This document shows, in pieces, positions 45,042 through 50,175 of a stretch of DNA of 64,000 nt. Below the pieces are notes generated by a model, which made no database searches, was not told the DNA's origin, and worked only from the letters and a program-made list of their open reading frames with translations. The stretch comes from an uncultured Clostridia bacterium. GTDB lineage: Bacteria; Bacillota; Clostridia; Oscillospirales; Ruminococcaceae. The position numbers and the translations under genes are program-made. The stretch lies in NCBI GenBank assembly GCA_947628655.1, contig CANRAS010000005.1:1-64000 (forward strand), given 5' to 3'. Position 1 is the first letter of the stretch, and the number at the start of each line of letters is the position of its first letter.

Positions 45042-45111
45042 GATTTTACTATTCGCAAGACACAGCGTTCCCGCTAAGCGGATAACGCGTTAATTCATCG
45101 CTGATAACAAA

Positions 45112-45285
45112 GCCCGCGTTTTGCGCAAAGCGCAAAACAACGGCGCGTAAGCGCCGTTAATTCGCCGTCAGGCGAATTGCGGGCGGTCGGGCAATGGCGC
45201 GGTACAGGCGGTGCAGGCGCGTTAATACGCTGGACGGTAAACTAATGCGGGATAAGGGCAAGGGGCGCTTGAATTGAGCAACGCC
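45112..45285 (-). repeat. R1 structured repeat, copy 5
   Basis: Inverted copy, cloverleaf core 45112-45184, loops AAA, GTAA and GTCA. It is followed by the interspersed motif (45321-45328, minus) and the hairpin GTTATCCGC/GCGGATAAC near 45374-45394. The rest of 44925-45421 shows no gene. Confidence 0.85.
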
Positions 45286-45421
45286 AAACGCTCGATAATG
45301 CGAACAACGCGCTGACCCGCAGACAATCTTTATTGTCCCCCGTAGGGGGGACACATAAACTAACTACTAGAGGGTTATCCGCGTAGCGGATAACTCGGCT
45401 ATTCTCTAGCTACTACCCGCG

Positions 45422-46963: not shown

Positions 46964-47090
46964 ATTAGAGAATAGTTGTTAGTAGCTGGTTGTTTGGGTC
47001 ATTGCGTTTTCGCAAAGAGGTAAGAGGTAAGACCTTTAAATCAAGAGGGTGTCACTCTGGGGAATACAGAACGCCCCGCCGACGGCGGGG
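46964..47090 (+). repeat. 127-bp direct repeat (leader), copy 1
   Basis: Identical to 47384-47510 except one base (G at 47049, T at 47469). The offset is exactly 420 bp. It begins ATTAGAGAATAG, has GCGTTTTCGC in the middle and ends in the hairpin CCCCGCC/GGCGGGG. Confidence 0.9.
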
Positions 47091-47108: not shown

Positions 47109-47375
47109 GCACGAGTTGCACGAGTTGCACGAGTTGCACGAGTTCGGCACGAGTTTTGGCACGAGTTATTTGGCTTAACAGAGCCGTTGGCACGAGTTTT
47201 TACTATTTTTATATATTTCTAATACATTTTTATAAAATACAAAACGGCGCGTGCATATGAAAAAAGTACTAAGGAATTTCAAAAAAGCCCGCTAACTCGT
47301 GCGAAACGCGGTGTAATGCGAAATAACTCGTGCCAAAACTCGTGCCAAAACTCGTGCAGGTTTATCAACTCGTGC
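47109..47375. repeat. Inverted-array element 1 (GCACGAGTT iterations)
   Basis: GCACGAGTT occurs seven times in direct orientation (starts 47109, 47118, 47127, 47136, 47147, 47159, 47190) and five times inverted as AACTCGTGC (47294, 47325, 47337, 47349, 47367). The first four are tandem with no spacer, others 10-12 bp apart. Between arms lies ~95 bp of AT-rich DNA with TAGTACTTTTTTC inverted. The left arm holds TTATTTGGCTT and the right arm its counterpart. Confidence 0.85.
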
Positions 47376-47383
47376 AACTAGTA

Positions 47384-47510
47384 ATTAGAGAATAGTTGTT
47401 AGTAGCTGGTTGTTTGGGTCATTGCGTTTTCGCAAAGAGGTAAGAGGTAAGACCTTTAAATCAAGAGGTTGTCACTCTGGGGAATACAGAACGCCCCGCC
47501 GACGGCGGGG
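47384..47510 (+). repeat. 127-bp direct repeat (leader), copy 2
   Basis: Second copy of the leader, immediately after element 1 and before element 2. One mismatch to copy 1. Confidence 0.9.
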
Positions 47511-47567
47511 TGTTGAGTTTTGACGGCACATTCTAGCTACTAGCATCTATTAAACTAGCTACTATTT

Positions 47568-48008
47568 GGACAGACTTTGGACAGACTTTGGACAGGCTTG
47601 TGGACAGACTTATTTGGCTTTACACCGCCGTTTGGACAGGCTGGACAGACTATTTGCCAAAATCCCTAGTACTTTTTTCGGGTGCATTTTACTGCACCTG
47701 TTGTTTTTGTTAAGTTACTGCTTGTCTAAAATTTGGCTTTACAAAGGCATTTATAGCTATATAATTCCCCACTTAGGAACGTTCGACTGCATTTAACTGA
47801 AATTAAATTAATATAAATAAAGCTGTTAAGTAAAGTGCTGTATTTCCCTTTATAAAGCCGTTTATAAGGATTATGCACTAAATTGCAGGAGAAAAAACGC
47901 ATAGGAATTTGCGATTTTTGCCAAAAGCCTGTCCAAATGGCGGTGTAAAGCCAAATAAGCCTGTCCACAAGTCTGTCCAAAGTCTGTCCACAACCTTAAA
48001 GCCTGTCC
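47568..48008. repeat. Inverted-array element 2 (GGACAG iterations)
   Basis: GGACAGAC/GGACAGGC words at 47568, 47579, 47590, 47602, 47634 and 47643 in direct orientation, and inverted as CTGTCC at 47929, 47961, 47973, 47984 and 48003, mostly 11-12 bp apart. Arms share TTATTTGGCTTTACACCGCC with its inverted partner near 47941-47957. The ~270-bp centre carries TAGTACTTTTTTC and AT-rich sequence without a credible gene. Confidence 0.85.
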
Positions 48009-48191
48009 AAACTTCCTCTTAACCCACGCAAAACCGCCCCGCCGACGGCGGGGGAAAACTGCGTATTGATTAGATTTAGCGCCCTCCCCGCCGTAGGCGG
48101 GGAGAAAGCGCTGTAATTCAAAGACAATCTGATCGCGGGCGACAGCCCGCACCTAATACTGTGTACTATGCACTATAGACTGATTTCGCGG

Positions 48192-49512: not shown

Positions 49513-50175
49513 AACTAACACTCCTATTTCAGATTAATTCGGGCATAGCCCGTTGGTTTATTATATGCGTGAGGTTGGATAGTTGTTAGAGAATAGTTCT
49601 TAGTAGTTAGTTATTTAGGTCAAGGGGTTGACCTGCTAGAGGTAAGAGGTTAGATGTAAGATGTAAGAACGCCCCGCCGTCGGCGGGGCGTGGTTCTGTT
49701 TATCGCGCGTTTTGGCGTGGCTCAATTCAAGCGACCTTTAACAGTTTATAGTGCACAGTGCAAAGTGCAAAGTATGTATAAAGTTGCCCGCCTTTGGCGG
49801 GCATATTAGATTGTCTTTGGGTTAATATGTCCTGCGCTGTCCGTGAGGTTTGGCGTTGCTCAATTCAAGCACCCCATTCCCTTATCCCGCGCACCGTAAC
49901 CGCCAAGCGTGTGAACGCGCCTGCGTCGACCGTGTACGCGCCGTTTCCCGACCGCCCGCAATTCGCCTGACGGCGAATTAACGGCGCTGTCGCGCCGTTG
50001 TTTTGCGCGTTGCGCAAAACGCGGGCTGCAAACATAAGCGCCCCGCCGTTCGGCGGGTGAGTGCCGCAAACCACACTAGCGCAATTCCCCCGCCAACGGC
50101 AGGGGAATACGCATTATTACTATGCACTCTTAACTTAACACTATAAACCGATAACGGCGGGGAGTGCGCTGAAAT
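49513..50175. other. 663-nt repeat-bearing intergenic stretch
   Basis: No gene. AG-rich short repeats, a GC hairpin (49671-49688), part of the TTTATAGT-type inverted-repeat family, the motif at 49809-49816, R1 copy 6 (49852-50026), and a hairpin CCCCGCC/GGCGGGG region before the permease stop. Confidence 0.65.
49852..50026 (+). repeat. R1 structured repeat, copy 6
   Basis: Cloverleaf core 49954-50026, perfect closing stem and hairpins, loops TGAC, TGTC and GTT. The 5' end is joined to the GATTGTCT motif at 49809. Confidence 0.85.

Follow-up and report, generated by a model that had tools for sequence, protein, structure and literature searches.

What does it take for every copy of an iterated word to be exchanged while the structure that carries the word stays the same? 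The window analyzed here (64,000 nt, C5:1-64000 of G000, the genome under study, 2.09 Mb in 34 contigs) raises this question, as it holds two neighboring elements that a sequence-only reading had described as built on a common plan, with the word replaced throughout each. The features of the two elements are as follows.

47074..47090, unstranded: GC-rich hairpin CCCCGCCGACGGCGGGG, left of element 1
47109..47375, + strand (canonical orientation): element 1 (W1), inverted array of GCACGAGTT
47109..47198, + strand: left array of element 1, with GCACGAGTT starting at 47109, 47118, 47127, 47136, 47147, 47159 and 47190
47166..47188, + strand: left-arm scaffold of element 1, TTATTTGGCTTAACAGAGCCGTT, exact pattern match
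47215..47235, + strand: core motif A of element 1, family consensus TTCTAAGAACATTTTTATAA, from alignment A1
47256..47279, + strand: core motif B of element 1, family consensus AAAAAAGTACTAAGGAATTT, from alignment A1
47294..47375, − strand: right array of element 1, with AACTCGTGC at 47294, 47325, 47337, 47349 and 47367
47303..47324, − strand: diverged right-arm scaffold of element 1, GAAACGCGGTGTAATGCGAAAT on the + strand, from the arm alignment
47494..47510, unstranded: GC-rich hairpin, left of element 2
47565..48011, − strand (canonical orientation): element 2 (W2), inverted array of GGACAG(A/G)CTT, direct and inverted copies counted on the + strand
47568..47648, + strand: left array of element 2, with GGACAG at 47568, 47579, 47590, 47602, 47634 and 47643
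47610..47633, + strand: left-arm scaffold of element 2, TTATTTGGCTTTACACCGCCGTTT, from sequence and pattern match
47659..47680, − strand: core motif B of element 2, including TAGTACTTTTTTC on the + strand
47892..47910, + strand: second B-like motif of element 2, in its enlarged interior
47926..48011, − strand: right array of element 2, inverted (CTGTCC)
47935..47958, − strand: right-arm scaffold of element 2, from sequence and pattern match
48037..48053, unstranded: GC-rich hairpin, right of element 2, with a second at 48086-48102

The copies that had been counted are all there, namely twelve in element 1 (seven direct GCACGAGTT, five inverted AACTCGTGC) and eleven in element 2 (six direct GGACAG, five inverted CTGTCC), although the full word of element 2 is GGACAG(A/G)CTT, whose two variants occur roughly half and half. 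A spacing of mostly 11-12 bp holds for element 2, while element 1 has 9-bp steps too (9, 9, 9, 11, 12 and 31 bp in the left array; 31, 12, 12 and 18 bp in the right). The segment TTATTTGGCTT, thought to recur in all arms, is found unaltered in three of the four (the left arm of element 1 and both of element 2), whereas the right arm of element 1 carries a diverged form (reverse complement TTATTTCGCAT). Both elements contain the internal TAGTACTTTTTTC, but on different strands (+ in element 2, 47667-47679; − in element 1, 47259-47271), so that the two are oppositely oriented. The arms of element 2 (65 nt) are 95% complementary and enclose an enlarged interior with an inner gap of 274 bp, in which a third scaffold-like copy (47731-47752) has B-type motifs to either side. 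Element 1 is flanked by 127-bp direct repeats (46964-47090 and 47384-47510, 99% identical), as if it sat within a tandem duplication. That no protein gene lies inside was borne out, the five ORFs that overlap elements having no Pfam and no PHROG match.

Searching G000 with elements 1 and 2 as queries gave 16 and 18 matches, respectively, self-matches included, and the fetched loci held 15 further elements at 12 more places in the genome:

C1: elements at 30.7, 44.4, 44.8, 154.1 and 154.6 kb
C3: elements at 36 and 80 kb
C5: an element at 115 kb
Other contigs: elements on C7, C13, C14, C20 (two), C23 and C24

Judged from these sequences, G000 harbors a scattered family of short, non-coding palindromic elements that follow a common plan, each with its own 9-11-letter word; it numbers at least 17 elements, both window elements included. 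Under this plan, an AT-rich core lies between two inverted short-word arrays, whose arms also contain a TTTGGCTTAACAnnGCC-type scaffold, in a length of ~240-450 bp (~237 to 447 bp from word to word for elements resolved singly) with 3-7 word copies per arm. In an alignment of 15 of the 17 cores (A1; element 2, whose core is rearranged, and the near-duplicate C5:115k were left out), the common parts were the scaffold TTTGGCTTAACAnnGCC, motif A and motif B. Motif B, when reversed, looks like motif A to the eye, which makes the core itself a weak inverted repeat. A sequence-only core model had 16 matches in G000 with E values of 3.4e-18 at most (47166-47287 in element 1, match R1, E 1.2e-22), with element 2 as a weak match, and gave no match of that strength in 60 relatives searched with stricter filters (best 1.9e-5). 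Weak matches in seven relatives were set aside, as they had no arrays; four of them had the scaffold motif.

To assess the arrays themselves, we scanned 2,056,932 bases for 7-mers with ≥3 direct and ≥3 inverted copies, each set within 180 bp and the arms ≤600 bp apart. This returned 17 clusters (16 in G000, one in a relative) and none once the same sequences had been resampled by a first-order Markov process (one resample), so that chance falls far short of explaining the arrays. The scan recovered 16 of the 17 known G000 elements, missing C3:36k, and found no array without the known scaffold in 400 kb of G000 deliberately taken away from known elements. Single-arm runs, sought as a possible mark of an autoregulated gene, were limited outside elements to L040 (TTGAAAC, three copies) in 535,186 bases of G000 and to four short runs in relatives, and pairs of GGACAGACTT (≤3 mismatches) were confined genome-wide to the two known elements. 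Clusters from a looser scan (L111, L123 and L124 in G000; L140, L142, L144 and L146 in relatives) were dismissed by eye or for alternating orientation. When arms ≤9 kb apart were allowed, two inverted AGAGGTAA clusters ~4 kb apart were seen in a relative (G007:C1, L163, 109-4215).

Between them, the 17 G000 elements use 12 words, and a given word is almost confined to a single element or to close copies. In a matrix of 13 words by 19 elements (17 from G000 and one each from two other species, G016 and G019), word counts are nearly diagonal, the off-diagonal counts ranging from 0 to 3 with the maximum for the 6-letter TACACA. Words found in two elements belong to close copies, with the exception of GGACAG(R)CT, which is carried by element 2 and C1_154.1, two elements that do not come out as sisters once word positions are dropped from the tree. 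The same word-stripped tree joins sisters with different words (C1_30 and C3_36, support 98) and groups C20_11.3, in which two AGACGT copies persist amid its ATACGT words, with the AGACGT pair (support 96). The scaffold search and word tabulation that the sequence-only reading had proposed were thus clearly positive, with 17 elements and 12 words in G000 and a 13th word in the two other species, and its claim of a common plan with the word replaced throughout each element is supported; the scaffold is found elsewhere, and the arrays are not slippage products lacking a conserved plan.

Simple tandem-repeat expansion without function would explain the exact tandem copies in some arrays, such as the 9-bp steps of element 1. 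It is already contradicted by the conservation of the plan, which recurs in 17 elements and two other species; in addition, unlike spacers and the scaffold separate the words, the arms are inverted and close relatives show few copy-number differences between arrays, and we regard such slippage debris as hardly credible.

Pairs of related elements reveal how the words change. C1_154.1 and C7 are 85% identical in non-word DNA (pairwise alignment), and the word goes from GGACAGACT to GGGCAGGCT, such that, on both arms, all 11 copies differ at position 7, and all 8 ungapped ones at position 3. For C20_10.9 and C3_80, the change from GTACAGGTT to GGACAGGTT affects 9 of 10 copies, the remaining one being misaligned, while C1_30 and C3_36, also 85% identical outside the words, are set apart by an insertion-type change that most of the 8 word copies show. 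A half-way state is seen between C23 and C20_11.3, where AGACGT has become ATACGT in 8 of 11 copies with 3 unchanged, and one outer copy is already in the new form. As these alignments show, related elements differ by the replacement, in unison, of most or all word copies. Pairs with the same word displayed word identities of 95, 98 and 99%, compared to 92, 88 and 94% for non-word DNA. Counting consensus changes over seven of nine aligned pairs (the two dropped pairs repeat an already counted contrast, and four of the seven share a member with another pair), we observed ~6 word changes where ~9 would be expected for single-copy sequence at the non-word rate, so that the ten-odd copies act as one sequence.

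The sequence-only reading had held such arrays to suit cooperative binding of a protein whose specificity had changed, but a single protein of this sort fits poorly with twelve words coexisting in a single genome; this coexistence makes copying that homogenizes arrays at least as likely as changed specificity. Uniform words inside elements and different words between them likewise point to copying within the element. On balance, and a little better than evenly, we favor the reading that these are non-coding, transposon-like foldback elements with words that would serve as protein-binding sites and arrays that undergo concerted evolution inside each element. We infer that word copies are overwritten from one another, which would keep them uniform within an element, most simply by polymerase template switching or repair while the arms fold back and pair. 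Shifted registers in the foldback could carry a variant across both arms, and each element would drift to its own word, the copies behaving as if they were one gene. Template switching between (imperfect) inverted repeats is reported to homogenize their arms (PMC8604942; PMC8794818), and foldback of the arms seen here would favor it.

Within an element, each arm is an inverted copy of the other. Arm-to-arm alignment of 16 elements gave agreement in 595 of 632 columns at word positions and 361 of 480 at non-word positions; foldback repair should homogenize spacers and scaffolds too, yet these are only 75% alike, which counts against it. Non-consensus copies are more frequent at array ends (30/64) than in the middle (28/114; Fisher p 0.003), as they are at the outer end alone (17/32, p 0.004) and, not significantly, at the inner end alone (13/32, p 0.08), in counts where the two-mismatch limit for copies may inflate the ends and element 2 is scored against one variant. 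Ends are less uniform here as in arrays homogenized by exchange. By inspection, few elements have variants common to mirror positions of both arms, a further point against foldback copying.

Concerted arms might instead reflect a functional RNA, with the element transcribed as a long hairpin and the words co-varying to preserve its stem. The arms do change together, and all 17 elements with their flanks fold as long rods (−102 to −220 kcal/mol, with no shuffled control). Pairing would account for changes of partner across arms, but not for identical words within one arm. Non-word arm mismatches (22 G-T and 27 A-C) show no strand bias, i.e., no excess of G-U over A-C, which favors a constraint on DNA over one on a single RNA strand. 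No Rfam family reached the gathering threshold in 71,186 bases from 12 loci, and all matches in an E-value search of the window fell below gathering; weak miRNA matches to element 1 (best E 4.7e-8, 51 bits versus a curated 249) were rejected as a generic likeness of long hairpins. In addition, 27 of the 34 element ends have a GC-rich hairpin no more than 110 bp away, and in 15 of these cases TTTT occurs among the next 12 nt inward, so that read-through transcription may stop there. Overall, we consider a functional RNA improbable.

We next turn to what the words may do. Across 16 elements (n = 146), 79 spacings measure 11-12 bp, 21 measure 31-34, 12 measure 41-44, 6 measure 51-53 and 10 measure 9 bp. 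None of 20,000 random sets was as tightly clustered in its long spacings, related elements not being independent given their common descent. A period of 10.5 bp is not distinguishable in the fit from 11-12, and the spacings in G016 and G019 depart from the G000 pattern. Spacing looks compatible with phased protein sites, short of proof of helical phasing. Words that form terminal inverted repeats at these usual 11-12-bp steps, with larger steps of ~31-34, 41-44 and 51-53, would be candidate DNA sites for a protein that works at the ends of the element, probably a transposase or recombinase provided in trans, in keeping with published proposals that treat repeats in transposon ends as extra transposase sites (PMC3573991).

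Short-word arrays around an AT-rich center also resemble plasmid partition sites and origins, whose iterons are short direct repeats about one helical turn apart, with a conserved plan and a word that differs between replicons. The arrays could be a chromosome-organizing or partition site, cooperatively bound by a ParB-like or ribbon-helix-helix protein, and the innermost-word gap of 95-99 bp in 8 of the 16 elements measured would agree with this. Unlike iterons, however, the elements occur as many dispersed chromosomal copies, some duplicated recently, and no initiator or partition gene was seen to be linked to them; G016 and G019 have sharp terminal inverted repeats, and locus-specific words are unsuited to a single organizer. 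We therefore rate a partition role as very improbable, and of the transposase, replication or partition proteins that had been proposed as binders, word-made terminal inverted repeats would best suit a transposase-type role.

Comparison of copies and genomes shows the family to be dispersed at unrelated loci. The 421-bp copies on C1 and C5 are 97.6% identical, which shows recent spread, and the syntenic csd-yqfC gap is ~100 bp and element-free in G011 versus 1325 bp in G000. A blind scan of stretches from relatives detected one element of the same plan in G016 (L131:3574-4003), with the 13th word, GTAGACA, between gerA-type and spore-permease-type germination genes. Searched against 43 genomes, it had matches in four, and its sole long non-self match was the G019 copy, 84-85% identical, in a 3-kb locus that is without these germination genes and hence different. 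The G016 element holds 9 perfect and 3 one-mismatch word copies, and the G019 element 12 perfect 7-letter words (7 direct, one of these in the right arm, and 5 inverted). Both elements (430 and 440 bp from word to word in G016 and G019) end in perfect terminal inverted repeats of 21 bp, composed of two words, and homology stops exactly there; no target-site duplication of 2-11 bp was found around either copy. Given such exact, word-made ends, at least this lineage moves as a word-bounded unit. Ends in G000 are less clear, as homology often runs on into GC-rich hairpin modules. The G016 and G019 cores align partly with the G000 family, in a joint alignment too little conserved for a model.

Across 12 relatives (with G016 among them), a sample of 1,521,746 bases yielded no further inverted array of this kind. 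Genus-wide, the scaffold alone has 41 copies in 21 of 42 other genomes, compared to 3 for a reversed control pattern. At ~8 of the 29 other-genome loci shown (L077, L080, L083, L085, L088, L091, L098 and L104), TTTGGCTTAACAnnGCC sits, by eye, at the tips of terminator-like hairpins with different stems, and around 1460-1640 of L089 (G019:C125) there is a tandem array of ~40-bp units with one scaffold motif each. Short matches of the G016 query in G001, G000 and G019:C230 (22-36 bp) were scaffold-type, without arrays, and were not retained; neither were two exact matches to the core motif among 84,980 named genomes, in Fusobacterium sp. CAG:439 and an uncultured Firmicutes MAG, which had no arrays and were judged to be chance. 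Phage and plasmid collections gave no match. Viral contigs had no match to the core pattern, 65 matches to the scaffold and one to the G016 word pair; an array scan of these 66 loci returned one cluster with a different word, a small inverted AGTGCTA array around 7307-7506 of L269.

No partner of the elements emerged from their surroundings. Flanking genes at 13 G000 loci are convergent in 4 cases, tandem in 9 and divergent in none (p 0.024 if a quarter is expected). Among the 27 neighboring proteins, 23 have a Pfam family, mostly with housekeeping or sporulation functions; no family is common to several loci, no partition or initiator protein adjoins an element, and the linked protein gene that the sequence-only reading had suggested looking for was not found. 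A phage-type DNA primase/helicase fragment (DUF5906, Pox_D5; phrog_864) at a contig end (L043:2877-3674) adjoins the C14 element, and a BREX BrxC/D-type ATP-binding protein (PF10923; L036:3675-4982) the C1:30k element. Other modular palindromic intergenic repeats are abundant, including GTCCGCGAGAGCGGAC, CTAG and CAGTGCACAG modules, and some abut elements (window 45111-45289, 49848-50027 and 49742-49835; C1:155757-155854 and elsewhere). Y1_Tnp (PF01797), present in 9 of 43 genus genomes, has no match in G000, G016 or G019 (the last 73% complete), and rve transposases have none in G000, where phage-integrase matches number 7 (6 of them exceed the cut-off) and no array lies within 1.5 kb of any.

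These counts bear on a further alternative, co-evolution, in which each word or word group would be recognized by a separate transposase or recombinase paralog, with every site changed by selection rather than copying once that specificity shifts. Words that make up the terminal inverted repeats of G016 and G019, that are more conserved than the remainder in same-word pairs and that are spaced in clusters are what it would lead one to expect. However, 12 words in a 2.1-Mb genome would require ~12 paralogs, against no Y1, no rve and 7 integrase-family matches in G000, and each switch up to ~20 parallel substitutions, each selected singly; the mixed arrays (element 2 and C20_11.3) and the less uniform array ends resemble the spread of a variant. 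We regard co-evolution as doubtful.

Among known systems, REP/REPIN elements with RAYT (Y1) transposases are short palindromic intergenic repeats in inverted pairs, and the G000 elements resemble them in this and in that their scaffold is often itself a small hairpin. A REPIN/RAYT identity was rejected, as no Y1 transposase was found in the three carrier genomes, and we know of no iterated words in REPs. Prokaryotic MITEs such as Correia, QMITE and Chunjie are likewise <500 bp, non-coding, intergenic and multicopy, with inverted repeats and strong predicted hairpins (PMC10969869). The elements described here are <500 bp, lack a protein gene and have terminal inverted repeats (perfect 21-bp ones in G016 and G019; inverted arrays in 17 of 17 G000 elements, with exact ends unclear). 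They differ from MITEs in that these repeats are arrays of a repeated word, which varies between elements of one family in one genome; we did not file them as MITEs because no target duplication was found at the two tested copies (G016 and G019) and a parent transposase is not known. The G000 elements share with eukaryotic foldback transposons, e.g., Galileo, inverted repeats that are long and internally repetitive; in Galileo, the internal repeats are proposed as secondary or extra transposase sites and a convergent trait of transposon ends (PMC3573991). The units of Galileo F are ~210 bp and variable in copy number, whereas here they are ~9-11 bp and the whole word is exchanged, in a bacterial host and with no coding region known. 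Taken together, the elements work like a MITE or foldback element and are real, conserved in plan and unusual; their private iterated words are a variant on MITE/foldback-like elements, for which we recognized no description in the literature searched, mostly outside subscription papers.

A more specific form of the favored foldback reading is possible, though we hold it tentatively and as well short of even: these would be a class of bacterial mobile DNA in which the word is a private address for each element, forming ends that shared machinery recognizes loosely, and foldback copying would rewrite every copy of it within an element, creating new end specificities in single sweeps. If true, the genome holds a dozen mutually distinct end specificities of one family at once. 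For transposon ends, iterons and centromeres alike, it is an unsolved question how arrays of binding sites come to switch specificity jointly, and the usual approach is to compare distant species. In G000, a dozen outcomes of one process can be found side by side, half-converted arrays included, so that the steps of concerted change can be read directly and the process becomes testable in a bacterium. The pattern points to rapid homogenization, within single elements, of short repeats that are inverted and non-tandem, for which ordinary unequal crossing-over would be a poor account.
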